DNA from: Monosiga brevicollis MX1
Lineage: Eukaryota > Opisthokonta > Choanoflagellata > Craspedida > Salpingoecidae
NCBI RefSeq assembly: GCF_000002865.3
Contig: NW_001865055.1
Location: 396,578-460,577, forward strand
DNA length: 64,000 nt
Reading direction: 5' to 3'
The position numbers and the translations under genes are program-made. Each line of letters opens with the position of its first letter. Positions within the stretch are counted from its first letter, which is position 1. Positions 4,016-64,000 of the stretch are shown here, in pieces. The notes under the pieces were generated by a model. That model had not been told where the DNA came from, searched no databases, and saw only the letters and a list, made by a program, of their open reading frames with translations.

Positions 4016-6874
4016 GACTTTGGTCTTGCGCCACTCTTGTGGAGCTTGATTAGAGGAGAGAGAAGCAAGAGCAAAGACAGTGGAGGTGAGCTATCGCCAT
4101 GTGCACGAGGCAGACGGGCCCAGAGTTGAGGTTTGGTCTTGTCTTGGAACGACAGGGATACAGAGCAAGCAGAGAGTGATATCACAAGTTTTGAGCATGC
4201 AAACGCATGCCAGTGGGCGTCGTGATCAATGGTGGAAGCAAGAGTCCAGGTTGACCGGATGGCGGAGGAATGAAGCGGAGGAAGCACAACAGTTGGAAGA
4301 AGAAGTTGTGGGCCAGCTCACCTCAGACGTGTTCCGGCAAAAAAAAAAAAAAAAAAAAGTGGGGGAAGGCTTGAGCTCTCGCCTTCCAAAAGATTGAAGG
4401 GGATTTGGAGATAAGACTAAAGGCAGACCCAATCTGTCGCTCGGCAAGCAACCGAGCTGTCGGCCTTTTGCTTCAAACGACCAGGCCCGCGCCAGGCGCG
4501 ATCGTTTCGTCGATCACAATGGTCTGTTAACCCTCGTCCTTCTTTTGAAACGGTTGGGGGGGGGGGGGGGGGGGGGGAAAAAAAACTCCAAAAACCCCGC
4601 CCCCGGAAATGATTTTCTTAAAAAAAAACCAAAAAGAAATCCCCCCCCAAAACCCAGGAGCAAAAAGGGGATCNNNNNNNNNNNNNNNNNNNNNNNNNNN
4701 NNNNNNNNNNNNNNNNNNNNNNNGTTGGGGGGGGTGGGGGGGGGGGGGAAGAGAGCTCGGAAAGCACGGCAGCAGGAAGTGATTTGCTGAAAAACAAACG
4801 AGAATGAAGTCCCGTCCAGAAACCGAGGAGCAAAGAGGTGATCCTTCCGGGCAGGGGCCAAGCATGCCCCAATTGCACCCCGAGGCAGCGCTTGTGGGGG
4901 AAGGAGCGGCGTTGAACGGCACAGTACAAAAGGGGAGTTGCAAAAGGAAATTGAGGACCCTTTGGAAAGAGGACTGTCGGGGAGAGGTGTGCGAGTTAGA
5001 TTGAGGCAATCCAAGTTGGTGTGCACTGATTCAATGCGTTTGAGGCGTGGTTTTGCAGAGCATCGGTTGAACGCAGCCGACGCGCGCTTGTCCTGAGATC
5101 AACAACCAACGCCCTGATCGGGGATCAACACGATTCGCACGACGATCCATCTGCCCATGCCTCTGCCGTTTTTTCCAAGAAAGCTCAGAGTCAGCCAGCC
5201 ACACACACACCACACACACACACACGATCGCAACGCCTATGACCATGACCATGCGTACCATCCATCATCTACAGCGTACTATCTACATCCATTACAATCT
5301 GCATGCGTGTGAAATTCAACCCATAGCCATTGCTTAGGCCCCATACAGATGTGCAGATGACGGATATTGGTCTACCATACACACTGCATACGTATGCATA
5401 CGATACCCCCTGAGATGGGTACGGACGGGTACGGTGTATTCTTGCAGTCGAAACGACTTGTTTTTGAAGAACTGTTGTACGCCAGCTATCGAGTTGCTGT
5501 CGAGTTGGGCGGGGGTTTGCGGAGCTGGTTTCCCGTTCTGTCCTGCAAATGTGAGCCAAACAACCCAACACCACTGTGTGCTTGTTCCGACATGAAGTGT
5601 CCAACACGTGGCCCACAAAGACAAAACGGCAGCGACCGCCACACAACAGCACACATAATCGATAGCGACGTCACGACAGTGCTGCTTTTTTCCTTAGAAA
5701 CAGCTGCGAGTTTGGTGCGTAGGGTGCAGACGATACACTGACGTCAGCGCGAGTATGGCATTGGTCTGGTCAAAGCGTGGTAGCGAAATCTCCATCTCGG
5801 CGCCAAAGTGAAGCGCACCCAACTTGCTGTTGCTGCAGGTGCCTTCACATATGACTGGCAGAAGAAAATTGAATTCCTGTTGCTCCATTGTGGCAGTCTC
5901 TGTCTCTGGGTCAGTCCCTGCCCCGTGGTCTCTGCGCTTTACCTCCATTGGCAGCTGTCTATGTACCGGATTTGGTCAATCGGTTTTGCTTCAGATGCAC
6001 AGCCATCGCCAAATACAAGAATAGCGAGGAATAGCTCCGAACATAGCAGCAATTCCAATTGTTCATTTATTTTTTTTCAAAAAAAAAAAAGAGGGGTGCA
6101 CCGCGTCATTTTTGCACCAGGCCCACCCCTTCTCCCCACTGCTGCTTGCTCGCCTTGACCACATAGAAGCGTAACAAACGACACACCTTTACTTTTGTGT
6201 GAAAGAAAAATGCGCCTCGTGTGCAGAAGTCACATCTTTGGTGCTGGGGATATGTGGGGCGCGTGTCATGGTGCCAATGACGTGGAGCAAGTATGCCTCA
6301 TACAACCAAGAGGAATTTTGTGGAAGGACTCAGATATGTGACGACGGGTGCTTTCTGCTGTGGCTGCTGCCCCCCTGTCGATGCCTCTGCCTGGCAGGTT
6401 GGAAGACCCAACGAGCACGCTCACATTATCTGTTTTCTCTTCGTCTCTTCCTTTACAGCTAGTCAGGCACAGCTGCAATCTCAGAGTGATGGTTCTCGGA
6501 TCAATTGAGAACTGGCGGCATGAGCGCCAGCTCGATACGCAAGAAGAAATTAATGAGGAGAAGGACTAGTTCGCACGCATCACAGCGCATCACGTTCAAG
6601 GGCCTTTTCTGACAGCGAGACAAACAACAAACACCGTTTCGCTTATCCACTACTAAATGATCACGCAACACCATCACACAGGCCCTGAATCTTCAGCACA
6701 CTTCTCAGGCAATAGATCAGCTACAGCACCACACACACACACACACACACACACACAGCTTAACCGACCAGAGCAAACCAGACATGACGCGGTCACGCTG
6801 TCAGCTCTGCGCCACCACGAGACCACATCGCCAGAAAGAAAGCCCAACCAACGATGGGCCAAAAGCGAGCGCGC
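4016..6874. other. Intergenic region upstream of kinase, with assembly gap
   Basis: About 2.9 kb between the dynein stop and the kinase start, both on the minus strand. It contains homopolymers (A18 near 4340, G and C runs beside the gap), the 50-N gap, CA microsatellites near 5202-5225 and 6730-6758, and an A-run at 6079-6090. Open frames here are short, overlap in several frames and show no family motif, so I call no gene. It should hold the kinase promoter and the dynein 3' UTR. Confidence 0.55.
4674..4723. other. Assembly gap of 50 N with duplicated flanks
   Basis: Fifty N separate two versions of the same roughly 120 bases. The left flank (4553-4673) is a homopolymer-smeared rendering of the right flank (4724-4843): both run from a GTTG plus G-tract to a GGAGCAAA...GATC end, in the same order and at the same spacing. 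The gap probably has no missing sequence. Confidence 0.85.
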
Positions 6875-45837: not shown

Positions 45838-48800
45838 TTAAATGTCGAGATACCGCTCAAACTCAGCCAATGCCCGGGCGTCTTGGCGGCGCGCCGAGCT
45901 TGGATCATCGTGGTCATACCGTGGTGGCCATTGCTGTGCCACGTACGAGTTCATACCAAACGCTGTTTCTTCGACCTCGTCCTCGGCACGAATGCCGGAC
46001 ACCGCCTGGGGCTGCGGTTGGGGTGAGGCTGATGCCTCGCTCATGGGCGATTTGTGATCCAACGCAGCACTTTCGTCAAAGGCGGCAAACGCGGGTTGAG
46101 GAAGCTGGTCCAGACTATACAAGGGGTTGTTGAAGTCATCCAGCGCGAATTCATCATCAAAGCGCTCAAAGGCCACATCGTTGGCGTCCAGAACCACCGT
46201 TGCAGTTCCAAACTCCGACTCTTGCAAGTCGCCCTCGTCCCAAGCCTCCAGCGGATCAACCAGTTCTGGCTCGGCCTTGATCAACCAGTGCTTCTCATCA
46301 GTGATTAGGCGCGTTGTTTTGGTAGTAAAGCCGGTGTCCCCGTCGTCCTTGGGGGCGTTCACCGTCTTCAACTCCTCAGTGGTCTTGTAAAAGAACGCAT
46401 TACCAGTCTCTGGATCAATCTCACCACCTGAAAAGGTAAACTCAGATGGTCCATCCGGGTCAAGCACGCGTTGTGACTCATCTTTACTTAAGCGATTGAG
46501 CATGACCGCAAAGGATTCCTCCGGCTCAGCAGTGCGTCTATTAGGATTGATGGGGCACAAGGCAATAACACACATGCGTACATGAGACAGACAGGCAAAA
46601 CTCGCGGTTTTATAAACCAAGGTTTGCAATCTACAAACAACAAGATGGAAAGTATAAACACGCGAGAAGTACGTACCGACGATGCACAATAAAGCCCACC
46701 AACAACAGGACCAGGATCAGAATGACCACCAAAGGCAAAACGATGGCCAGAAGCGTTGCTCCTGGGTCACCTGATGATGCATTCGGGTCCAAAGCATAAG
46801 CGCGGAAAGATACGGAGGCGCCTAGTTGCTCTCCAATCTCCTGCTCATAGGGAGATAATTCAGCCTGCAGGGTTGAAGCCGGAATGTTGCCGTAAATGTC
46901 GACCAAAAGAGCCCGGCCTGCCTTCAAAATTTCGTCTGTTGCTGCATTTGTAGCCTCAATGCTTCGCACCGCTAGGACGTGCACGGTGGCCCAGGTCTCA
47001 TCACGGCGGCGCTCAGATTCGCTCACAAGCTCATACACAGCATGTACAGGCAGATAGAGCTCATGATTGCTCACGTCATTCACGTATCGAGCAATCTCAT
47101 CCAAGTGTGCCATTGCTTCTTCGACAGACAAAGCCACATCCATGGCTAGGAGCAGGTCACGACGATACACTTCAACGCGCAATGATGCTGAGCTTGATAG
47201 CGGCACAGCACCACGGTCTGTGGCCGTGACCATCATCGTCACCGTGTCCTCGGAAAGGTCCGACAAGTCGCGAGTCGTGGCAATCACACCCGAAGGAGCG
47301 TCGATTGTTGCAAACTCACTGACAGCGGTGCTGGAGGACAAGTCGAAGAAAAACTCACCATTGACTCCAGTATCCGCGTCGGTAGCATCCACATCCAAGA
47401 TGGTGGCGCCAACAAAGTTGGCAGGGACCACACGCGCTGCCATCACGCTCGTGATAACCGGTGCGTTGTCGTTGATATCAGTCAAGGCGAGCGCAATTTG
47501 CACATAACCAATCTGCAAGCCCGACTGGTTTACACCAGAAGCGGCCAACTCCAAGTCGGTCAAGTAGTTGCTGGCGCCAATGAGAGCAGTCCATGTTTCA
47601 GAAAGCTCGCGATCAAGTTCAGGCACCCCGGAGCGAACTGATAAGACGCCCGTGGTCGCATTGACGAAAACACTGGTCACCTCCACACCAAGCAAGGGCG
47701 TCGTTAGGTGCGGCGCCATCAAAGACACCAGCCCGTAGTAAATTGGGTCATCTCGCTCCACATCAGCATCCGTTGCAGTCAAGGTGCCTAACACGCGCGT
47801 TGACGCATGTTCGGGCAGCGAGTACGTATAGCTTTCAGCCTCAAACACGGGTGCATTGTCATTGAATGACACGGAGATGGAATAGTTCTGCGCTGCGATG
47901 GGTAAGCCGGAGCAGGCATCAATCCACTCAAACTGCAGCAAGTCACCAAAACCTGAGCCAACAGCCTCCACGTGATCGCTACCTACTACCACCACCTGTG
48001 TATCCAAGGATTTCACAACAAGATCGTTCAGGGCAATAGCTTGCCGCACACCATCGCCGTAAACGATGTCAACCAAATAGAATGAGCGGTCACCGTTGTT
48101 CAGCAACAAATTGGAGAGGGACAGGCGCGCCGACAAAGATCCAGCCTCAGTAACCGTGTCAGTTGACAGGTAAAAGATGGCGTCATTGTACAGCAGCGGC
48201 GCAAATCCAAAGATCTCTGCTGGAGTTGAGGTGACTTCCACGTTGACGGGGGCAATGCGGGTTGTGCCATCAACAAACACGGTCGTGAGCCCTGGGGCCA
48301 CGCCCTGAAGCGTTTGGCCGTCCACTGTTGCGACGCTACCATCCGATGTTGTGATTGAACTCTCTAGCCACGTGGTCACGTCGGCAGTAAAGGCTGACTT
48401 AGCGTCCGAAAATGTGGCCTCAACCTTGATTTGCGCGGTACGATATGCAGGCTCGGTGCACGCGTCGTTCATGGCGCCCTCGAGACGACCGAGGGTCGAG
48501 GTGGACAGCGATAGGGAGGCACGTTGCACCGCAAATACATGGAAGGTAGCCGTGCCGGTGGCCCCGGCTGACTCCACAAATACACGGGCCGTCGCTGACC
48601 CCGCAAGTTCTGTGCCATCCAGCACCACAAGCGCGCAGTTCTCCAAAACGTGCACAAGCACATCGTCCTCTGGCGCGCAATTCAGTCCTGAGTCCACGAC
48701 GATCACGCTTCCACTTCGGGCGCGAACTGCCAGGACCACCATGGGCCATGAGAGGGCCTGGCTATTCAATTGCGCTGTATTCACCATCACACCAGCATCG

Positions 48801-51800
48801 CTGTAGGCAAACAAGCCAGCCAGTTGCTGGAGATCGGCATCAATCGTCAGCTCACCGCCATTGCTAGAACGCAATGTGGTACCATCGCGATCCACAACCG
48901 ATGCTGCGTAGGGAAATTGTTGGGTTGCGACATCCGAAGGAAACACAAACTGGTCAGCGGAAGAAAAGAGGTTGTTGACGGTGGCACGAAGAGATGCTGT
49001 GCCTGAAGGTTGGGCAGTGCGAACCGTGACAGTCAATAGCGCAAGCCGCACGGCATCTGCGGAAGAGGTGGAGCCAGATGCACGGTTGCCTGACAAGGTA
49101 ATTGCTTCTTCGCATGCGGAATTGTCTGAGAAGACAGGCTCTGTGCAAGTTACGCGCCCGCTTTGCAAGTATACAAAGTCATCGGATGCGCTGGTCACGC
49201 TCACTAGTCGGAACGCGTTCTGTAATGCCACAGTAATGGAGAATGAGGCCACGCCCGCTGTCGCTTGTGCGTATAAGGCGACCACGAAAGTCTCGCCAGC
49301 GTACACCGTACGTGCTGGCAGCAACAGCCAAGCATCGTTGCGCAGCACCACATCAGATACTCCAGTGTTGCGCGGATGCAGGGTGACAGCTGATACAGCA
49401 CCGAAGCTCGAGCCATCAGCTGCAACAGAGATCAAAGCACTCACATCAGCGTCGCTCGCAAACCACGCGTCGGGCACGGTGAACTCGATTGAGCATACAC
49501 CATTGCTCGCTGTTGTGCAAGAAAGCATCAGCGAAAAACTCGGGTTGGTTGACAACCGCAACCAAAAAGTGAGTTCGATGCCAGCACCGGCGTTGCGATG
49601 ATAGGTCGTCTTGGCCAGGCCAGCAGCACGCACACGCAGGGGAGTGCCAAGGTCCGGCTCGTCGTTAAAAACTTCCTTGTCAAGAACCACGAGATCGGCA
49701 TATGAAGCCGAATCGCGACTGATTTGTGCTGTCACAGGGCCGAGGCCATTGATGCCCGGTAGCGTTACGTTGAATGCAGTAGCGTTGGTCATGAAGAATG
49801 GGCCAAAATTTTGTCGGGCCGAATTGATCGTTGAACTGTACGCTCCACGATAGCCGGCACCAGCCTCAAAGTCAAAACGATGGTTCTCGCTGATCTTCAG
49901 TACTACTTCTGTAGTTGAGCTGAGCGCAGGAATGCCTCGATCGGTTGCCACAAGTGTGACCAAAATTTCATCCCCAACGTCACCAATCAACTGATCGAGC
50001 ACGACACGCGCTCGTCCACCATACGTCAGCACGGACACAGAACCATTGGGCGTCTGCGCCCCAATCGTGTAGAGCAGCTCCGCATTAATGCCAGCATCTG
50101 CATCGCGAGCAACCACATCACGGAGAATACTGCCCGGCTCCGTGCCCAATGGCACGACTACCCGATAAAGGCTGGCCTCAAAAATGGGTGTGTTGTCATT
50201 GACGTCAAGGATGTCGAGCTTGATGGTGGCGAGCGTCGACAGCGCCGGTGACCCGGCGTCGGTGATATTAATCAGCACGTTGTACTGGGCCACTGCCTCG
50301 CGATCAAAAGATTGCAAGGCAATGACAACACCTTCGGGGGTTACATCGATCCAGTCCGCAAAAGTCAGCACACGGATCTGCTGCACTTGAGCATTCACGC
50401 CCAGGTCAGCGTCAGAAATCAGCAGCTGGCCAATCACCAGGGGCGATGCCAGATTCTCCGAAACGGAAATCTCAAGCGAACTGGCATTGACACGCGGCGG
50501 ATTATCGTTTGCATCCAAAACTGTCAGGTTTACGGCCCCCACCGTGACGAGGGGAGCGCTCGCCTCAGGACTGTCGCGTGCCGAGACATTAAAGAGAATG
50601 TAGGGCAACACCTCCCGATCCAGCTGCACCAAGAGGGTCACCTCACCTGTGATCTCATCAATAGCATACAGCGCGGGGTCGAGCGACGTGTAAACAACGA
50701 CTGCATTAACGCCCTCGTCGGGATCTGTGGCGCTCACGGTTCCAATGACAACACCAGCAACATTCTCCATGACTGAAAACTGAAATATCTCCATGGAAAA
50801 CTGCGGCGCATTGTCATTCACATCGGATACAACGATGTAGACCTGAGCTTCCAAGGAGAATTCAAGCACCTCCATCGCCACAACCAGCGCATAGCTTGCG
50901 CGCGCCTCCCGATCCAAAGCCTGTGCCACCTGCAAGTTAAAGTTTTGCGAGTTGACCTCGAAGGCATCTGGTGAAGTGCCTGAAATGGAAAATTCCACGG
51001 CAGCATTACGCGGCACGCCAAGGCCTGAGTCATACTGGACAATGAGTCCGAGATCAGTTCCGATGCTCACGTCCTCTGACACCGTAAAGTTGAACACAGC
51101 GCCATCTTGCGCACAGAAATCAGATCGCAGAGCATTATCAAACAAGATGAACGGATTGAAGCCGTTGCTGCGATAGGCATTCGCTTGGAGCACGCCAACA
51201 TCAATATCGAGCCGGCCTGCATGATGATAGGGTGCCAAGGAGGAGCCATCCAGGAAAAACTGGCGCGAAACATCGGAAACTCCATTGGCATCTGTCGTCA
51301 CCATGACCAAGGAGACACCAAGGTCATCCAGCGACATGCCCGTGCGTAAGGAGACACGGAAAACGCCATTGGGGCGACTGGCGGCTCGCATAATCGAGTA
51401 TGAGGTCAAATCCAAGACAGTGCCCGAATTGACCGAGACGGCGGAGGAGGTACCTTCGATGAGGTCGACGTTGTCAAACAGATCTTGATTAGAGACATCC
51501 GCATGCGTCAGCATGAAATGCAAAGCTGTCTGGCTGCTATCCACGGCCACGTCACCCTTGGCCATGAGGGTGACATCCAGAGTCATGAGGCAGTTGTCAC
51601 TGTTCTCGACGGGAACGATGGAGATATCCTTGATGAAGCGGAGCTGACGGAAGTTGACACGCGCTAAGAAGGATGAGTCACGGCCGTCAATCACGCCGTT
51701 CAAATCGGCATCCATATTGGCCTCCTGCTCCCCAGAGCTCAGCATATCAGCTCGGAAAGCAGCTCCCGCCGGTGTGGCAAAGCCCAGCGAAGCGTAGACA

Positions 51801-54800
51801 ATGTAGTCTTGGGTATAGCGCACGTCACGAACATCAAAGAGGCAATTGCCATCTGCATCGCCCGTCTCGCGTGCCTGACCATAAACCGATACGCACTCAG
51901 CCGCCGTACAACGTGCATTGGCGCACTCTGCACGGCGTTGACGAACGCCTTGCTGAGGGCCCTCCAAGCCACCATGCTTCGCTATCAGAGCCAACACAAC
52001 CGCACGGCTGTCAGCCGTGGCGGTTGCTGGCAGCAGGCCATCGGCGCCATCCTCAGTCACATCCGCTTCAGAATCAGCATCAGCATCAGCACGACGGCGC
52101 CGGCCAGCACTGGCCACCACCATTTCAACGCTGCCGGCCACAAAGGCACGGTTCTCGGCGCCCATCAAGACGCCGTCTGTATCTGCCATGGTCGTGACCT
52201 GTCCCGTCAACGCCAAGCGCTGACCAACCGTTGCACCTGCCAACACTCTAAACGTCAACACCGCAATCTCCTTGGTGCCCTGCAGACCCGTGGTATCCAA
52301 AGCTCCGCCGAACAGGACCACACCCGGTGGATCGTCCAGCGTTGCTGTCAGCTGCGCGCTGCTTGGCCAGGCACTGCCAGGCGCCACGCTCACCGCCTCC
52401 AGCCGACTGGGGTCGTAATACACAGACAAATCGATGGAGGCTAGCGTGCTGCTGCCGGCATTAACACGGACCGGCACCGTAAACGTGTCGCCAATGGCGC
52501 GGGCGCTCAGTGGCAAGCCTGTTGCAGCCCCCAAATCCACATCAAAGGTGTCAGGGTCTAGGTTGGCCGCAAAAGTCGCCGAGCCCTCGATCCCGCTTGC
52601 CACGGCTTGGGCCGTCACAGTGACCAATTCTGGCCAATTGGCGTGCAACGTCACTTCACCCGTCACCGAATTGGCCGAGGCCACGGTGGGCTGACTGCTG
52701 CGGAAAGTGATGAGACCGGGCAGGTTGACGGCACCGTTCGCGCCGAATAGCGTCGGATAAAAAGTTCCATCGTCAAACCGCGCGCCAAGTGTGACAAACG
52801 CAGAGGCCTCATCCTGCACGCCCCGCAGCGTCGACGTGAACGTGACAGATCCGACTGGCGCTGTTTGGCCAGTTGGTACAATGGCATTGACCATAACTTG
52901 GTCCGAGGAAATCGTTAGCGAAAATGCGCTGCTCGTGATCAATCCATGGAAGTCGGCGATGAATTGCGCAGTGCCACTGCTAACGCCCGAACGTACATTC
53001 ACAACCTCGTTCACAATTTGTACCAAGGAGTCACCGGATGCGATCGCCAGCGACAAGCCTTCTTGCCCGGAAACATCGACTTCCTCGCCGTCTGTTAAGA
53101 CCGCCGTGCTTTCCAGCACGGCTTGCTGGTAGACACCGGTATTTGCGAGTGGGTGCAGTGTTGACATGACAACAGCTGACGAGCCGCTGTACGCGGGAGT
53201 CGGCCGAGCAGTCAGCTCAAGACTTGTCATGTCAACGGCTCGGAGTTGCAAGGCCGCCGTAATGTTGTAGTGCACAAAACTCACGTTGATCCAAAAGTAA
53301 CCCGCAACCGCGCCTGAAGGGCGGACGAGCAAGTTTTCGCCGAGCTGCTCTATTGTTGCAGTCACTCCTGACGCGGAGGTAACTGTAAGAATGGTGCGCT
53401 CATCAGCAGACATATCCAGCGTACGGCCGTTGAAAACCAAAGCCACTGTGACAGCCGCTGCTTCAGAGATACCGGCGAAGCGGGCAGCACTACCAGCAGT
53501 TGCCACCCGTGATGCATTGCTCACGATGAGCACCTCATCAGGCTCCGGGATGCTGACGTTTGTAAAAACTGTGGCATTCGAAACCTGGCGTCCAGAGCAT
53601 GAGAGGGCCTCTACGCGGACCAGTTCGCCGACACCTGGCGCCCGGGCGATGACCCGAGTGCCATTTGCGTGCAATACAGAGGGAGAAATCGATACGACGC
53701 GGAGCTGGGCAGCAGACGCAGTATTTGGCAGCACTAAACGCGTTCCATCGGCAAACTCAACCACGGCAAGCACCGATGCGTCATCACCTTCAAGAGAGAG
53801 CTCTTGCACCAATGAGGCCACAGCTGTCGCAGATTGCGTGGACAAAATGCTTGTTGGAAGGTCGAGGCTCAAGCGGGTGACAACAAAGCCTTCGAGACTT
53901 GTGGCCCTGATTCCTGAGGTGGCCACCGTGATCGATGCATTGGCAAGCTGCATTTCGTCACGCATCAGGCTGAGCGTGGTGATGCCCTCGTTCAGCGCAA
54001 ATACGTGAGTACCATCCATCAACGCAACGGTATGGTTTGCAATGCGCAAGTTGTCCTTGATGAGGTTTGTGACGCGATACTTGATGTCCAAGTCCAAGCT
54101 GCCAGCCGAGAACTGGCTGAAGACCTCGACGACGGCATCTTGGTAGAAGATCGGGCACGCCGAGTCCTCAAAGTCGGTCAATCGCTCCAAATAAGGATCA
54201 GAGACCACCATGTCAACATCTGAAGATGGCATCCAGACTTTGAGGCGGACTGTGTCTGCAACGCCATTTGAAGCAGTGACCAGAGCTTCTGCCACACCTC
54301 CATCAACATCAAAGGAGGTCGTCAAAGTGACGTCAGCGCAATCGGTGTTTGCCATTGTCAGTGGAGAGGTACTGGTGCAGAAGACATCGCCGGTCGATGC
54401 CGGGGCACGAGCACCAGAAAGTCGAACCACTTGGATGGTTATGGGTACCGATACACTCACTCCTGTTAGAGGACCACTGTTCAAAACTTCAGCCGAGGGA
54501 GCATACGCGAACACGCCCGTGATCACGTCTGCAGCTACGAAGACCTGCCCACTCTCATAAACCTCACCTGCAAGGCGCGAGCGACGGTCTACAAACTGTG
54601 CAGGCACAGTTTCAGGGAAAATATCTTCACCCTTGACATTTGTCAACTCCAACACATCCATGGATAGAGCCAGAGTGGCATTGGTCGACGCACTTGAATG
54701 AACGCTCATGGCCACGACAACAAGCGCCTCAGCGTCAACGATGCTAGTTGAGGCACTTGCGGCATCCTTGAGTTGGCCGAAGATGGTCCAGTCGGTGCTT

Positions 54801-57800
54801 GATGCCTCAGTGATGACAAGGGCAAATTTGTTCGAGTCAGCGGCTGCTGCCGATTGGATGCGCAAACCACTTGCAACGGTGAGGCGAACCAGGAAGGTCT
54901 GAACTTGGAAACCGGCATGCCCTTCGATAGAAATGTCAACGCTGTCACCGATAAACAGGTCTTGTTGAGGTACAATCACACGCATCTGCATATCAAGAGC
55001 CTCTGCAGCACCATTCATTGATCGGTGCAAGACCACCGCGCCCAAATCAAGCATCGACGAGCCATCACTAGCCTGCACATTCACCTGTGGGTCAAGATTT
55101 TGTGCCAACAAAGAGGGTGCGGTGAACCAGGAAACTGGAAGGGCACCCGAGGACACTGTACAAAATCCCGCGGGGGCACCAGAGGCCACAACACAGGATT
55201 TGCTGATGCTTGTAGCACCAGCTGCCGACAGCATGCCATCAGGCACAAACGTCACAGTGATTGTACCACCTCCTGTCAGTGTCTGGAAGTCTTCATCGTA
55301 CAGTTGAGCATGAACGATAATTGAAGAGCGTGCCACAAATGCAGTGCGGGTGGCCAAAACGGCCTTGAAGCTGCTCGCCGGCGCAACGGCGCGTGTCACG
55401 ATGCGTTCCCCAATGAGCGATCCGAACGAGGCTGATACGGACATGCTCGCGCTGGGAGTCAACCCAACGGGTCGACCAACTGGCTGCGCGTACACGTCCG
55501 CGGCTAGCCGCGCTGGATTGCCAACCAATAGGGCGGGATTGGCCGAAAAGACAACATCGCGTACGACAGGCAATAAGACCTCGACAATTGCCGTGGCTTC
55601 CAAAGGCGGGGTTTGCTGATCAGAAGCAATCACAAAGAGCTCGAAGCGAGGCTCTAACGCGGGTAGCTCAGCGATCAACCGCAATGCACCCGATGCAGCA
55701 TCGACAACAAAATATGGCGATGGTTCGCGCAAGCGGTAAGCCACGACATCTCCATCGCCATCGGTGGCCTCTAGCACAACCAAGGTGGTGCCAACCGGAA
55801 CCGATGTGTTGACGGTCAGCTGGAAGAAGCTCTGCTCAAAAAGAGGGGAGTTGTCGTTCACCGGCAATACAGAAAGAATGATCTCACAGGTAGCAACGAA
55901 GTTTCCATCGGATAGTGCCACGGTGAACTCGTAATGGTCATTGCCCGTATCGTAATCCAACGGCTCGCTCAAAATCACCCGTACGTCACCCGCAACCGTG
56001 GTGGCTCGGAATGGCACTGAGGGTGTCACAATGTAGGCCGACATGTTGCTCAAGGGCGAGTCACGGTCGAAGTAAGGCAAGGACACCACGGTGCTGTTGA
56101 CAGCTAAAGTCTCATCGACGTTGACCTCAACGGCAGGGGACAAAAACTGCGGCGGGATATCGTTTGTGTTGTTGATGTACACATTCACCAACGCCCATGC
56201 CACAAAACTTGCCGCCTGCGTTGAGTCAGTCGCGGTGACATTGAGTGTGTAAGCGGTTGGGTCCGCTTCGTAGTCGAAGCTGCGAAGCGAGCTTACAACC
56301 CCAGAAGCTGACACGGCGAAATCGATACTTTCGTCCACAAGCGCAAAAAGCGGAGGAATGGCGAATTCATCTTCGTCTGTCACCTCGAGAGTGAGGATCG
56401 GGCCGGGGTCTTGATTCTCTGGGACAAAGACAGTGAATGGATTGTGGGTAAACACAGGGGGATGTTCGTTCACACAGCTGTGCGAAGCACGTGTATTGTT
56501 TGCCAAAACGAATGGGTTGTAGCCACTGCCACGATACACGCTGACCGAGAATTGACCAACCAGAACATCAAGCACGCCTGCATATAAAAACGGAGCAGAG
56601 GAGGAGCCGTCCAAGAAAAACTGGCGCGATTGATCGGTTTCACCCAGCGAATTGGTTGTGACCATGATCAATGAGATGCCCACGGAATGTACCACGTCGC
56701 TACGCATTTGCACAACAAAGTGTCCGTCGGTCAGCACGCTGCTCAAGTAGGCTGAAGGGCGTACGTTGCGAATGCTGCCAGAGGAAACAGAAAACGCAGC
56801 CATGGTGCCAATGACAAGATCTGCCTCATCGAAAGGCAGGTCGGACGCATGGCTTGGCGCAACAAAATCGAAATAGACAAATGTCTGAGACGCGTCGACG
56901 GCCACATCACCCTTGGCGACGAGTGTAGCAGCGAGTGTCAAGGCACAATTGTCACTGTTCTCGACGGGAACGATGGAGATATCCTTGATGAAGCGGAGCT
57001 GACGGAAGTTGACACGCGCTAAGAAGGATGAGTCACGGCCGTCAATCACGCCGTTCAAATCGGCATCCATATTGGCCTCCTGCTCCCCAGAGCTCAGCAT
57101 ATCAGCTCGGAAAGCAGCTCCCGCCGGTGTGGCAAAGCCCAGCGAAGCGTAGACAATGTAGTCTTGGGTATAGCGCACGTCACGAACATCAAAGAGGCAA
57201 TTGCCATCTGCATCGCCCGTCTCGCGTGCCTGACCATAAACCGATACGCACTCAGCCGCCGTACAACGTGCATTGGCGCACTCTGCACGGCGTTGACGAA
57301 CGCCTTGCTGAGGGCCCTCCAAGCCACCATGCTTCGCTATCAGAGCCAACACAACCGCACGGCTGTCAGCCGTGGCGGTTGCTGGCAGCAGGCCATCGGC
57401 GCCATCCTCAGTCACATCCGCTTCAGAATCAGCATCAGCATCAGCACGACGGCGCCGGCCAGCACTGGCCACCACCATTTCAACGCTGCCGGCCACAAAG
57501 GCACGGTTCTCGGCGCCCATCAAGACGCCGTCTGTATCTGCCATGGTCGTGACCTGTCCCGTCAACGCCAAGCGCTGACCAACCGTTGCACCTGCCAACA
57601 CTCTAAACGTCAACACCGCAATCTCCTTGGTGCCCTGCAGACCCGTGGTATCCAAAGCTCCGCCGAACAGGACCACACCCGGTGGATCGTCCAGCGTTGC
57701 TGTCAGCTGCGCGCTGCTTGGCCAGGCACTGCCAGGCGCCACGCTCACCGCCTCCAGCCGACTGGGGTCGTAATACACAGACAAATCGATGGAGGCTAGC

Positions 57801-60800
57801 GTGCTGCTGCCGGCATTAACACGGACCGGCACCGTAAACGTGTCGCCAATGGCGCGGGCGCTCAGTGGCAAGCCTGTTGCAGCCCCCAAATCCACATCAA
57901 AGGTGTCAGGGTCTAGGTTGGCCGCAAAAGTCGCCGAGCCCTCGATCCCGCTTGCCACGGCTTGGGCCGTCACAGTGACCAATTCTGGCCAATTGGCGTG
58001 CAACGTCACTTCACCCGTCACCGAATTGGCCGAGGCCACGGTGGGCTGACTGCTGCGGAAAGTGATGAGACCGGGCAGGTTGACGGCACCGTTCGCGCCG
58101 AATAGCGTCGGATAAAAAGTTCCATCGTCAAACCGCGCGCCAAGTGTGACAAACGCAGAGGCCTCATCCTGCACGCCCCGCAGCGTCGACGTGAACGTGA
58201 CAGTGTCAAAGGTGGTGATTGAGCCAGAAGCAGTGATCCGATTGACAAAGGTTTGCTCATCGGACATCGTGATGGTCAAGTCGTTCGAGGCGGCTTCTCC
58301 ATTGAAAACAGCAGTCACCACCACCACACCGGCGCTGGAAGGCAGCACGCGTGACAGGATACGCCCACTCAAAACAGCACGTTGGCTAGCTTGGACAATG
58401 GACAAGGTGGTGGCAGCCAGGCTTGCGACCTCGTGCGTTGCGCCATCACTCAAGTGTGCGGTCACACTGATTCGAAGAGACTCAAAAACGTTCGTTTCTG
58501 CGTATCTCAGCGAGCTTGTCTTGCTCACCGCACTAGAGCCCGCAAATATAGGGTATGGCTGCGAGGCCATAGTCACCTGACTGAGGCGTATGACACTGAA
58601 AGTTTCGCTTCCAGACGCATTGAGGTGCTCAAATGTTACGCGAAGCGTTACCGGGCCCTCGTAGGTAGAATCGGTCACAATTATCATGACGGTCTCCTCA
58701 CCGCGCTCTACTCTGCCGATGCTCGGTTCCAACGAGAAGAGCGTCCGGTTGTCCAACTCACGGGACAGGAGTGCGCTGCCATAGCGCAAGTCAACATGAA
58801 CCCGAGCAGATGTGTCGACGCCGAGCAGCGCCGCTGATGAACCAGGCAGGCAAATTTTGCCAGTGTCAAGTTCAACTTCGACTGAATCCGGTTCAGGGAT
58901 GTCAATGGCAACAGTAGCTGTTCCATTGGCTAAGGCATCAAAGCTTAAGCCGCAAGGTTTGTACTCACCCAAAACAAATTGTCCCACACCGCTTCCAATG
59001 GCAGTCACAGTATCATTTGTGACTGTGACTAACGCTAGGTTTGCACTGGAATATACCATACCATCCTCGACGGTCAGCAGTTCTGATGTCATGTCAGAGT
59101 AAAGTGCGAGTGCCACAGCGTGACCCTCCTCATACTCGAGGTCAAAGGCCTGATCCACCTTGGCAGTCACATTGATCGGCGCGGACACCACCTCAAAGTC
59201 CGGGACAGCCGTCAGGGTTAAGTCCGTAAAAACAGCAACTCGAATTTGAGTGATATCAACGCTGCTCTCATTCACAACGAAAGCACTTGATTCTGCCACA
59301 AGAAGACCATCGCGCAAAACCCGGATAACACTTGTGCCTGGTCCCACGCCGCGAACTTTGCCGCTGACAATCTCCAGAACAGAAGTGTCAGCCGGGGCCA
59401 ACGCGCCCGCGAAGGAGTCAATCACGTTTGCAAAGCGAGCCTCAACACCATCAGAAAACGACGCAAAGGCATCCAAATGGCGGCTTTGATAGACTGAACA
59501 GCCAGAGCCGGAGATAGCATGCAAATTTTGGTCTAGCGCTGTCAAGGGCACAGGTAGAACCGGTGCCCATACACGAAATCTTGCAACGGTGCTTGATGCT
59601 GCCCACATGACCGTGATTGACACCTCGGGACTGCCCACGCTCTGTGTTTTGGGAAGTTGCAACGCTGTGCACCCGGAAGTGGGTTGCATAACACTTGTCT
59701 GCGAAGACAAGCATGCTAACTCACTCGTAACGCGCGAACGTTGACCTGAGCGATAAATGGCATACGTATACAAGGGCCAAGAGGTGGTTTCGCCCGTCAA
59801 CACGCCAATATTGGTTATCTCACCCACATCACCAAAGGCATGGAGCCCACGCACTTCGTCAGGAGCAACGAATATTTGACCGTAAGCAAAGACCTGGCCG
59901 GTAAGCCGTGATCGGTGATCAATAAACTCGCCTGCAATATCAGAAGTAATGAGGTCCTCGCCTCTGATGTTGGTAATCTCCTGCACAACGATGTCGATGC
60001 GGACTGATTGACTTGTGGCGGCGCTGCTGGAGACCACAAAAGTGACGTCTAAAAGCGTCTCTGCGGCAACGGGAGATGAACTTGCCGAGGAAGCATCGTT
60101 CAGCTGACCAAACACAGTCCAATCAGACGCCGAGCTCGCAGTGTTAACAATTGAAAATTTATCGCTATCGCGTGCCTCCACAGAAGTAATGCTGATGGCC
60201 GAGCCAGCTGTGAGGCGCAAGAGGAATGTTTGCAGTTGAAAGCCGGCATGTCCCTCGACTGTCGCCGAGAAGGCGTTGCCAGGGAATATGTCATTAGCAG
60301 GTAGGGTCATGCGCAATTGATTAATGGGGTCTGCCACAACAGGTGGTACCCAACGCGTCAGGACCACCGTGCCGACGGACACCGGAGCACTCCCATGTAG
60401 AGAGACCAACACTTCCACGGTTGGATCCGCAGCATCATCTCGAAGTGCGGCCATAGTGAACCATGAAGCCGGTAGGTTCGTTGACGCAAAGCCACACATG
60501 CCTGAGTTTGTACTGGCTGCAACGGTACAGGAACCTGACACAGCGACAGCGCCCAGGCCCTGCAAGCGAATGTCGGGTTGAATCGTGAAGGCAATGGTTG
60601 CACCCTGCGTGCGCGGATTGAAGGAACCATCAAGAACAAGGGCGGATGCTCGAACCACCCGATCTTCCACGAAAAGTGCGGTTGAGGCCAGCACGACCTC
60701 CAACCGATTTGCTACTGCCCTGGTCTGAGAAAGCGCCTGGGATCCCTTCAGTGAGCCGAGTCTAGCAGAAAGCGTGCCGCCTGCTAAGGCCCTTGGCAAA

Positions 60801-63800
60801 ACGGAGTACGCCTGCAAGTATTGGTACTCGAAGCCTGAAGTTGAGTTCAGAATCGAGGGGCTGTTGGCAAAGAGAGCGCCACTTCCGGAGAAGGACATGG
60901 TGAAGTCCTCTGCCGAGCCAAAGGACACAAAGACGGGGAAGCTTGTTTGACGCTGAGGGGAGCCACGATCTCTTGCGACAACCACGACAACCATTGCCGT
61001 GGAGCCGAGAAGAGAGCCGGCAACCTTCAGGTTGCCGTCCAGGGTGATACTGAATCGGTTTCCAGATGCGGCGGTGTCAACAAAAAAGTCTACCACGCCT
61101 CCGTTCCCGGTGTCAGGATCTGTGGCTGAATAAGAGGCAACAACTGTTCCAATGGCTTCTGCCTCAGATAAGGTGAGAGAAGCCGGGCCCGAAACAGTTG
61201 GGCTGACATCATTGACATCAGCCACTTCAATAAACACGTAAAGCTCAGCATGATGTGACGGAGTGCCACGATCGCTCGCTATGAGCAAAAACCACGCTGT
61301 ACGGGCCTGTTCATAGTCCAATGAAGCATTGAGCGAGACAACCCCGTCGCTAGAGATGATTACACTACAGTTTACGCTTGCAGCAACATTATAGTTGAGC
61401 ATGGCATTGATGCCCTCATCATCATCAGTTGCAAGAAACTGAGCAAAAGCACCACTCTGGTCCTCGGGCACGACCAATGTCATATTACTTGCGTTCACCC
61501 ACACTGGTGGGTTGTCGTTGACATCAGAGATATTAACCAGAACGGTAAAATTTGTCGAAAGCGTTGGCTGTGGCACAACATCGGCGTATGTAGGTTCAAA
61601 TGTCGGAGCGCGGTCTTGTACCATCACCACCAACTCATAGCTGTCAATTGTTTCCCGATCGAGTTGCCCGACAAGAAGTAGAGAGCCGGACGTAGCATTC
61701 AACTCAAACGGAACAACATCTGATGTCAATAGGAGGTATGTCAAGGCTGCATTCCAGTCATAATCGCTATCAACAAAGCTGAGCTTTGTTATCGCTGTGC
61801 CAACAGCAGCATCTTCCAATACTCGCACACTTTGCGACATGTTGGGCAGTGGAGCGTGATCGTTTTCATCAAAAAGAATAATCGACATGTAACCTGTCGA
61901 CGTTTGCATGGGCGAGCCACGATCACTAGCCACAAAAGTCAAGTTCAAAAGCTCACGTGCTTCGGTCAGGAGGGGAGCAGTTGCCATGACAGTGACGATT
62001 TCCCAACAAGATGCGTTAGCCTTGTTCGCACCGAACACGCCTGATAAAGAGGTCAGTGTCATATCAACAATACCAGCTGACTCGCTATCGGCATCATAGG
62101 CACAAAGCAAAGCCGCAACGTGGCCGCTCGGTGCCAACTCTGACAAGAATGAAGGTGATGTAAATACGAAGATAGGCGCATTGTCATTGACATCAATGAT
62201 TTGAACGTGGATGGTGACGTTGGTTGCCAAGCTGATGGGGTCGCCTCGATCACGCGCCTCGACGACGATGGTGACATCTTGCCGGTGCTCATAGTCAAGA
62301 GGATTTTCAAGAGTGACAGATCCGGTCACTGCATCGACTGCAAAGTAGCCGTCCTCATTGCCAGCCACAATTGCATATCGAACGATGCCACTTGCACCTG
62401 AATCTTGATCCACGGCGAAGATGAGCTCAATCTCTGTTCCAACGGCATGGTCTTCAAACAGAAGCACCTCCCGAGAGGGAGAGGTGACCACTGGAGCGTA
62501 GAGGTTTGCGCTGCCGATAGATATCAAAACCGTATCAGAACTTGAGAAAAACGGCGAAGCAAGGTTCGTCACAGTCACAGTGAAAAAGAAGGAAACAGCA
62601 ACAGTCTTGTCCAGTGGTTTCTTGAGGATTAGGGACCCCGAGGATGAGTTGAATGCGAATGTGGTTGTATCCACCACCGGGGGCGGTTGGCTGTTGTCAG
62701 AAATGGGTGGGTTGGCGCGAATCGTTCCGACGGAGCGGGATGACTCGGCAAATGGCCAGGAATCAGCATCAGCGTAGGTCAGCACGTACACGGAAGTATT
62801 GACATCAGTATTTGATGGAATTTCCAAAGCGGTGCTTGAGGTGATGACTGGAATGTTATCATTGGTATCAATCACAGTGATAGAAACAAAGGCTGTGTCA
62901 TTCAGATGAGAAAATCCTGGAAGTTCGACAAAAGCGGTGATGTTCAAATCACCCATCGCTTCCCGATCCAGTGAGATCAACGTCGACAGAAGTCCGGTCG
63001 ATTTGTTGAACGCAAACAAGGAAGCATTGAGATCTGGAATTGAGAACAGTAAAGGAACTGGCGGGTCGATCCAAGCGGAGAGAGTACCGATGGAGACGCC
63101 TGCGGGCAGGTTCTCAGCCACAGAGAAAGAGAAAGATGTGGCGTTAAAGCGGGGAGGCACATCATTCAGGTTGACGATCGAAACGTTGACCACCACGCTC
63201 GACGAGCGTTGGCGCACAACACCCTGATCCCGGGCCACAATCGTCACCTGATACTCTCGGACATCAACCTCATAGTCGAAATCCTGCAGTGCCGTCACAA
63301 TGCCGCTCACAGCGTCCACGGCAAACAAGCTTGAGGCCTCGCTCAGTTCGTAGCGCACAATGCCCGATTGACCGGTCACGGCCAGGCTGCCATACGCAGC
63401 AGGGGCCACGCCCGAGCTATCCGCGTCAGTGGCATTCACAACCCCAACAACGGCGTCGATGCCAGAGTTCTCGTCCACCTCAAACCGCACAGTTGCAGAC
63501 TCAAACACAGGATCAGCAAAGTTGAAGCACTCGCTACTCGTCACATTGTTACTGAACGTAGTCAGCGGCGAGTAGCCACTGCTGCCCGTAATCACCTCAA
63601 TGCCATCCACTGTCATGCTCAGCTGCGATGAATAAAGCGGCGTGGCACTCGTCTTAAACATGCCCAAGCGTCGGGCCGTGCTGGTTCCGCCCTGTGAATC
63701 ATACGTCTTTTGCAACAACGACAGACCCAGGCCCTCGCCAACTAGCGACGTACTCAGCAAGCGTACCTCAAACCAGCCCTCACCCGTGCCAACGGCCTTG

Positions 63801-64000
63801 ACGACTCCACCATACAGGCTGGCCGAGCGCCCGCCGTCTCCGACGTAAGTGCCGTTCCAATAGTATGCATTGCTGCTCAACGCAGACGTCAAACCACCCA
63901 TGGCGCTGTCCTGGGCTGACGTAACAGAGACATCGAAGAACACTTCCGTGTTGCTGGCCGATGCTCCATCATCCCCAGCTTCGGCCAGCTGCGCACGAAG
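45838..64000 (-). CDS. Coherin-type giant cadherin (cadherin, cohesin, BIG, dockerin-like), 5' partial
   Basis: Type I membrane adhesion or sensing protein. Two exons: >64000-46677 and 46537-45838, joined GTGCATCGTCG to ACGCACT (VHRRRTAEPEE); the frame is open at the window end, so signal peptide and start are missing. About 6,000 residues are visible. N to C: about 8 cadherin repeats (60.9-63.5 kb), marked by DVNDNAPIF, DENDHAPL, DVNDNPPVW; module A (56.5-60.9 kb); 3 repeats (55.56-56.47 kb); module B (51.1-55.56 kb); 4 repeats (49.9-51.1 kb); module C (47.9-49.9 kb); 2 repeats; a juxtamembrane region; TM helix LLAIVLPLVVILILVLLLVG; about 233 cytoplasmic residues, acidic, ending FERYLDI. Each module has a cohesin-like fold followed by BIG/Ig-like domains; A and B add a BIG-cohesin-dockerin segment. 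Cohesin plus cadherin repeats defines coherins, known from choanoflagellates and sponges. The tail has NNPLYSL (NPxY) and no catenin-binding motif I recognise. Confidence 0.92.
46690..46775 (-). other. Transmembrane segment of the cadherin
   Basis: Hydrophobic run LLAIVLPLVVILILVLLLVG followed by FIVHRR, a basic stop-transfer signal, then the splice donor. It fixes the orientation: everything encoded above it in coordinate is extracellular. Confidence 0.92.
47870..49880 (-). other. Cadherin module C (TMEM132-like, no dockerin segment)
   Basis: Starts after cadherin repeat 15 with HRFDFEAGAGYRGAY; contains a cohesin-like strand set (LLLPARTVYAGETFVVALYA), then ATFHVFAVQRASLSL and a Cys followed by PAYRTAQIKVEATF, matching the order in modules A and B. 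Unlike them it passes directly into cadherin repeats without the BIG-cohesin-dockerin segment. This is the most diverged copy. Confidence 0.65.
51110..55560 (-). other. Cadherin module B (TMEM132-like plus cohesin and dockerin-like)
   Basis: Begins VVFSANPALLVGNPARL; cohesin-like FQVQTFLVRLTVASGLRI; then RLKVWMPSSDVDM and CPIFYQDAVVEVFSQF, BIG-like strands, the 1,255-base conserved segment, and a tail FFLDGSSLAPYHHAGRLDI before cadherin repeats resume. The VW-x-P motif followed by Cys and YQ is reminiscent of the TMEM132 ectodomain. Confidence 0.7.
51594..52848 (-). repeat. Perfect 1,255-bp internal repeat, copy B (BIG-cohesin-dockerin)
   Basis: Appears base-for-base identical to 56949-58203 at a fixed offset of 5,355; identity starts and stops abruptly (differing bases at 51593/56948 and 52849/58204). 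It encodes about 418 residues: a BIG2-like domain (TLRGVQDEASAFVTLGARF), a cohesin (DTFTVPVRVNAG, SIDLSVYYDPSRLEAVSV), a basic RRRRAD linker, and two dockerin-like calcium loops DADGNCLFDVRD (about 51838) and DADLNGVIDGRD (about 51688). Confidence 0.95.
56470..60905 (-). other. Cadherin module A (TMEM132-like plus cohesin and dockerin-like)
   Basis: Begins TMSFSGSGALFANSPS after the first block of cadherin repeats; cohesin-like FQLQTFLLRLTAGSAISI; then ARFRVWAPVLPVPL and GCSVYQSRHLDAFASF (the clearest TMEM132-like signature of the three modules); BIG-like strands with GKVRGVGPGTSVIRVL; the 1,255-base segment; and FFLDGSSSAPFLYAGVLDV before cadherin repeats resume at EHPPVFTHNPF. Confidence 0.7.
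56949..58203 (-). repeat. Perfect 1,255-bp internal repeat, copy A (BIG-cohesin-dockerin)
   Basis: Partner of 51594-52848, with no difference seen, even at synonymous positions. It lies in module A of the cadherin; the dockerin-like loops fall near 57193 and 57043. Sequence on either side resembles that beside copy B but is clearly diverged. Confidence 0.95.

Follow-up and report, generated by a model that had tools for sequence, protein, structure and literature searches.

TMEM132-like modules in a coherin-type giant cadherin of Monosiga brevicollis and a putative convertase-cuttable cohesin–dockerin clasp

What lies between the cadherin repeats of a giant choanoflagellate cadherin, and what could it do there? 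The question is raised by a stretch of 64,000 nt from Monosiga brevicollis MX1 (GCF_000002865.3, NW_001865055.1, positions 396,578–460,577), hereafter the window, whose own positions serve as coordinates throughout. On its minus strand, 45838..64000 holds the C-terminal part of a giant cadherin gene of coherin type, recognised from an open frame, a 3′ exon and Cadherin matches, that continues upstream past the window. Coherins are defined by cadherin repeats and a cohesin domain in one protein. An earlier note on this DNA had proposed that three TMEM132-like modules are interspersed with the cadherin repeats of this protein, and the comparisons below support this. Moreover, we suggest, with a probability of about 0.5, that the repeat unit is larger than the TMEM132-like core and that the core is followed by a cohesin–dockerin clasp which a convertase could cut.

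TMEM132 proteins are neural and disease-linked, their function is poorly known, and according to the main text of PMC6030884 they consist of a conserved region, a cohesin domain and three immunoglobulin (Ig; BIG) domains. The same text reports all five domains, in unchanged order, from lefftyrins, coherins and hedglings. Therefore, the idea of TMEM132 domains in a coherin is right, but not new. The main text of that paper makes no mention of a dockerin, of convertase sites or of the rest of the module in coherins, lefftyrins or hedglings. Likewise, the titles and abstract openings surveyed contain no report of a unit of cohesin, furin-type site and dockerin, although Nichols 2012, Peer 2009 and Abedin & King 2008 may mention dockerins.

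All three modules, called A, B and C in the order in which they are translated, lie in a single open frame that runs on the minus strand from 64000 to 46631 (5789 aa) and includes 17 Cadherin stretches (Pfam, frame searched as two halves at a lenient E≤10). The Cadherin E-values of the whole halves are 3.2e-49 and 2.8e-85 and canonical cohesins stand in A and B, so that the assignment to the coherins stands. Module A (56465..60916) and module B (51101..55567) are complete, and module C (47864..49885) comprises the TMEM132-like core only, as delimited by alignment and Pfam; these limits fall within 11 bases of those first proposed. Ig_TMEM132_4th exceeds the curated Pfam cut-off in A (59558..59824, 1.6e-13), B (54224..54514, 1.6e-6) and C (48533..48808, 2.5e-11), giving a significant profile match to TMEM132 in every module. 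The remainder of the proposed TMEM132-like order is borne out in part. Over the cut-off, Ig_TMEM132_5th (53924..54166, 9.1e-8) and Ig_TMEM132_6th (53597..53899, 1.3e-6) are found only in B. In C the fifth domain (48272..48466, 1.2e-4) is below cut-off and the sixth has no Pfam match, and in A the equivalents of both (58898..59557) are placed by alignment with B and match neither Pfam family.

The cohesin-like strands that had been read in all modules correspond to Pfam TMEM132_3rd in A (59876..60325, 8.8e-4) and B (54545..54994, 0.0021), below cut-off in both, and have no Pfam match in C. In leave-one-out searches, a hidden Markov model (HMM) built from two modules was searched against the third. 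These searches recover the cohesin-like domain of A (4.8e-28) and B (1.3e-29), and also the conserved region of A (60362..60913, aligned with B and C; 2.2e-11) and B (55031..55567; 7.2e-17), neither of which has a Pfam match. Both regions are missed in C, in keeping with the earlier remark that C is the weaker module. The block spanning the fourth and fifth Pfam domains is recovered in all three modules at 50–56 bits, compared with 9.7 bits in the best of 100 shuffles, and the sixth is recovered significantly in none. The alignment extends C through the sixth Ig domain, a region that alone is not significant for C. Ig_TMEM132_2nd, taken as the conserved region, has no Pfam match in the window and reaches 0.002 in one paralogue (C31), and an HMM of the conserved region found no paralogue among the fetched open reading frames (ORFs). 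Taken together, these sequence comparisons confirm all three TMEM132-like modules, C being the least well supported.

In modules A and B the core is followed by three Ig-like stretches, a cohesin, a linker with two R-x-[RK]-R sites, a dockerin-like domain and a closing domain; the dockerin-like domain and the furin-type sites, like the identical block described below, go beyond what had been noticed before. The three additional Ig/Big-like stretches (57902..58897 in A, 52547..53548 in B) are delimited by HMMs and are Ig-like by position only. HMMs of the first two match the paralogues C34, C38, C54, C10 and C22a, that of the third matches only C22a and C38, and the order is conserved. For all such module-domain HMMs the E-values refer to a set of 18 sequences, and window matches to the window's own HMMs arise by construction. 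The canonical cohesins (57479..57901 in A, PF00963, 7.6e-18; 52124..52546 in B, 8.7e-17) score 65.5 and 62.1 bits against a curated cut-off of 24.1, and are distinct from the TMEM132 cohesin-like domains of the same modules. In the linker, RRRR (57446..57457 in A, 52091..52102 in B) is followed by RQRR (57287..57298 and 51932..51943), which precedes the dockerin-like domain. The latter (56990..57241 in A; 51635..51886 in B, identical to that of A) was recognised by loop pattern and paralogue alignment and contains two calcium loops, DADGNCLFDVRD and DADLNGVIDGRD. The closing, or post-dockerin, domain was delimited by HMM at 56465..56974 in A and 51101..51619 in B. In module C we saw neither a Cohesin match nor a furin-type site nor a dockerin-like domain.

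This arrangement recurs throughout the genome. Relatives of the dockerin-like domain were found at 15 places, of which two are the window copies, and 17 of 18 dockerin-like places examined (the 15 relatives together with C22b, C4 and one further place) are preceded both by R-x-[RK]-R and by a cohesin or cohesin-aligned domain, the 17 being the 15 relatives plus C22b and C4. C4 was first known solely as a Pfam dockerin match; its sequence then revealed an upstream RRRR and, below cut-off at 0.0025, an upstream cohesin-like domain. Moreover, Cohesin matches the genome seven times at E≤0.1, each time inside such a unit. Three extra copies, two on C11 and a third on C34, were located via the motif and are excluded from the 17 of 18. 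The TMEM132-like core is part of the same pattern: Ig_TMEM132_4th has 14 matches in the genome at E≤0.1, of which 12 have such a cohesin 1.9–2.2 kb downstream (those on C11 and C34 being motif-found rather than Pfam matches), one has it at 5.1 kb and one, module C, has none.

Is the calcium-loop domain a dockerin? Two 12-residue loops are present by pattern in all 14 aligned members, window copy included, and Dockerin_1 matches 10 of the 14 distinct aligned segments at E≤1, the window's not being among them; in the genome as a whole it matches 14 places at E≤10, six of them over cut-off. A profile of the 14 paralogous segments searched against solved structures retrieves clostridial dockerins first (4fl4, 1.3e-6) and, weakly and via its N-terminal half, cohesins (2jh2, 0.008; 4ums, 0.009). 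With a dockerin-only profile dockerins again come first (2e-7), calmodulins follow from 2.8e-4, and in both searches the best dockerins are aligned over both loops. It might be argued that the domain is an ordinary EF-hand pair, since the dockerin-only search ranks some EF-hand calcium-binding proteins (2jnx, 6e-6; 1jfj, 1.1e-5) in the midst of the dockerins, with calmodulins next. EF-hand models do match, but each family model finds only one or two of the 14 members where Dockerin_1 finds 10, and the cohesin or cohesin-aligned domain upstream at 17 of the 18 places also speaks against an EF-hand pair. We regard the EF-hand explanation as improbable, and the family evidence identifies the domain as a dockerin. 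As the two window copies have no Dockerin_1 match of their own, they are named dockerin-like here.

The linker between cohesin and dockerin was analysed by counting motifs in ten ORFs (50143 aa), with 16 cohesin starts listed by hand, three of them found via the motif. R-x-[RK]-R occurs downstream of all 16 starts, first at +141 to +217 residues, and 25 of the 33 motifs fall within the 1936 aa (3.9%) downstream of cohesins; in the window frame all four motifs are in linkers. The corresponding binomial probability of 5e-29 is too strong, because neither the copies nor the motifs are independent. By eye, five of the other eight motifs adjoin transmembrane helices on the cytoplasmic side, and the remaining three lie in a non-coding-looking frame, an EGF-like stretch and an Ig-like stretch; one further motif was seen in a C54 frame outside the ten ORFs. 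For an acidic control pattern the count in the linker was 0 of 16. However, looser basic patterns are also enriched there (R[RK] 54/147, RRxR 13/18, [RK]xxR 28/147). This agrees with an explanation in which the protein is nothing more than a coherin whose TMEM132-like modules follow the architecture already described (main text of PMC6030884). Its cohesin and dockerin would be structural domains that stay uncut, and its arginine-rich linker just a basic, flexible spacer. A mere spacer would sit less well with the 14-member alignment, in which R-x-R-R before the dockerin is near-invariant amid a linker that is otherwise mostly gapped and unconserved, or with the scarcity of R-x-[RK]-R elsewhere in the ten ORFs (8 of 33). 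The genome also has P_proprotein domains, of the convertase type, at three places (best 4.8e-17; the count covers P_proprotein, not catalytic domains). We consider the spacer explanation rather unlikely, at somewhat shorter odds than the release of the ectodomain discussed below.

Several observations weigh against a convertase-cuttable cohesin–dockerin clasp, in addition to the EF-hand proteins that score among the dockerins. Pfam Dockerin_1 (PF00404) matches neither window copy even at lenient E, and the assignment of these copies is based on likeness to paralogues with at most 46% identity. Pfam Cohesin matches only seven of the 14 members at E≤1, the others being cohesins by alignment only. 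Duplicated copies, overlapping motifs and the three motif-found copies make the motif statistic look stronger than it is. One place, C11:127398 (E 0.6), the eighteenth, lacks the motif and shows no cohesin by eye, and the count of 18 leaves out five PF00404 places below cut-off; moreover, the dockerin-like domains of the C11 copies and of the third C34 copy look degenerate. Distances between cohesins correlate with those between dockerins (r 0.37, p 0.008), as expected from common descent alone, and because of this shared descent the correlation is uninformative. Lastly, AlphaFold models were unusable both for the cohesin–dockerin stretch (one sequence; predicted local distance difference test, pLDDT, 32.5) and for the TMEM132-like core (three sequences; pLDDT 35.4). 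An NCBIfam search returned nothing useful and a scan of prokaryote genomes found no relative.

Domain order, the calcium loops (by pattern) and the conserved R-x-[RK]-R are read directly; from them we infer cleavage, binding, a cis or trans geometry and exposure of the linker. In the secretory pathway, a convertase would cut the cohesin–dockerin linker at its R-x-[RK]-R sites. Each segment would then end in a cohesin and the next would start with a dockerin, and a calcium-dependent cohesin–dockerin pair could hold the cut chain together in cis, or couple segments of neighbouring molecules in trans. A giant adhesion chain would result, linked at defined points by non-covalent joints that give way under rising force or on a drop in calcium; its reach and adhesion may come from the cadherin repeats and the TMEM132-like Ig domains. 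Module C, nearest the membrane and without a clasp, would remain joined to the membrane anchor.

The same cut could have a different consequence. In clostridial cellulosomes, cohesin and dockerin are usually on different proteins, and in Monosiga many different genes carry the pair, so that pairing in trans is allowed. Cleavage might thus release the ectodomain, with cohesin and dockerin binding other partners such as matrix, bacteria or prey, or other coherins. All seven genome Cohesin matches (E≤0.1), however, have an in-frame dockerin-like domain downstream, which favours pairing within the module, and we consider shedding unlikely, more so than the spacer. The clasp can also be extended to a proposal that giant choanoflagellate cadherins are segmented chains, which we offer tentatively: every full module would be cut by a convertase, and calcium-dependent clasps of the kind familiar from cellulosomes would re-join the end of one piece to the start of the next, either in cis or from one molecule to another. 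On that proposal the animal TMEM132 ectodomain would be a module core that has lost its clasp, and module C would show this truncated form beside full modules. We hold this proposal to be less likely than not.

One block (56951..58201 in A; 417 codons, ~1.25 kb) is identical in DNA sequence between modules A and B and spans the third additional Ig stretch, the cohesin, the linker and the dockerin-like domain; the local alignment covers 1309 bp at 98.9%. An assembly error was considered for this block and likewise for other tandem copies. The flanks of the block have mostly 20–53% protein identity and its boundary is sharp, which favours recent gene conversion over an assembly artefact. Gene conversion or unequal exchange probably keeps the modules alike. 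Tandem near-identical module copies are also seen in two other genes, at C38:612961-621992 and C11:128152-137782 (4.3 and 4.7 kb, 98.7–99.8%), and probably reflect a recent duplication or conversion rather than an assembly error.

At its 3′ end the gene probably contains an intron of 139 bp (46538–46676), picked by its splice-site sequences out of seven candidate pairs. The open frame contains a transmembrane helix at 46685..46753, identified by eye, and translation of the 3′ exon yields a cytoplasmic tail of 232 aa (45838..46537) that ends at 45838 and contains NPLY and PPRY. Simple patterns for WIRS and for the PP1-binding RVxF motif found neither in this tail, and the protein is therefore classed as a carrier of TMEM132-like cores, not as a TMEM132 protein. 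A GGE[IV]DP-x-TG-like stretch, seen by eye, is common to this tail and to that of the C22 paralogue (frame end of C22a).

At the other end, residues 4–160 of the frame (63521..63991) match the HMM of the A/B closing domain (20.7 bits, independent E-value 2.5e-7, set of 18 sequences). Another module therefore probably ends there, and its cohesin and dockerin are expected upstream of the window. A further 17,039 bases upstream, on the same strand and in another phase, we found cadherin-like repeats and the start of a module, with a conserved region (0.0015) and a cohesin-like domain (0.0019, both in a search of 60,000 proteins) that score 20 bits each compared with at most 2 bits in 100 shuffles. 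One further module is present upstream at least in part, and we infer that these upstream parts and the window frame belong to one gene. The 39.5-Mb genome holds many giant cadherins and coherin-type proteins, as fits a choanoflagellate. A DLG-like protein encoded in it matches Monosiga mbDLG (6x1p) at only 66.9 bits, which is too low for the same protein and would fit a paralogue. Elsewhere in the window, a 50-base run of N at 4674–4723 is probably an assembly gap.

Paralogues of the unit show further combinations of domains. At C22:142001-152000 a Kunitz/BPTI domain (7.3e-14) stands between two parts of the closing domain. At C54:1934001-1944000 the cohesin, furin-type sites and dockerin-like segment are succeeded by a membrane helix (by eye) and an in-frame PDZ domain (8.2e-6). 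In the region of C31:402788, TNFR-type cysteine-rich repeats (1.2e-11) lie between the module and a membrane helix, the latter again by eye.

In summary, TMEM132-like cores in the Monosiga genome adjoin a cohesin and a partner-like dockerin domain. Should the pair bind and the linker be cut, this would offer a concrete way in which cells could have adhered before animals arose, and a hypothesis as to where the animal TMEM132 ectodomain came from. Like the window protein, coherins as described in the main text of PMC6030884 have cadherin repeats, a cohesin and the TMEM132-like five-domain core in one polypeptide; relative to that description, each full module here is extended beyond its core by three Ig-like stretches, a canonical cohesin, a dockerin-like domain with furin-type sites before it, and a closing domain. 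Animal TMEM132 proteins resemble the window protein in their membrane anchor, in the fourth Ig domain and, as far as the partial matches to the other domains go, in the order of a cohesin-like domain and the fourth to sixth Ig domains. They have one set of five domains (main text of PMC6030884), whereas in the window protein the module is repeated, the core is followed by a putative clasp in A and B, and the tail lacks WIRS and RVxF by the patterns used; it is module C that resembles the animal core in extent. Bacterial cohesin–dockerin pairs, both cellulosomal and non-cellulosomal, likewise combine Cohesin PF00963 with the duplicated calcium loops of the dockerin type, but in the window protein the two occur in cis on a single eukaryotic adhesion chain and are separated by convertase-type sites. 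Notch and LRP1 are receptors that are cut by furin and whose halves are held together non-covalently. The logic proposed here would be the same, that is, a cut in the secretory pathway after which the halves stay together, except that in the window protein the holder would be a cohesin–dockerin pair, repeated along the chain.

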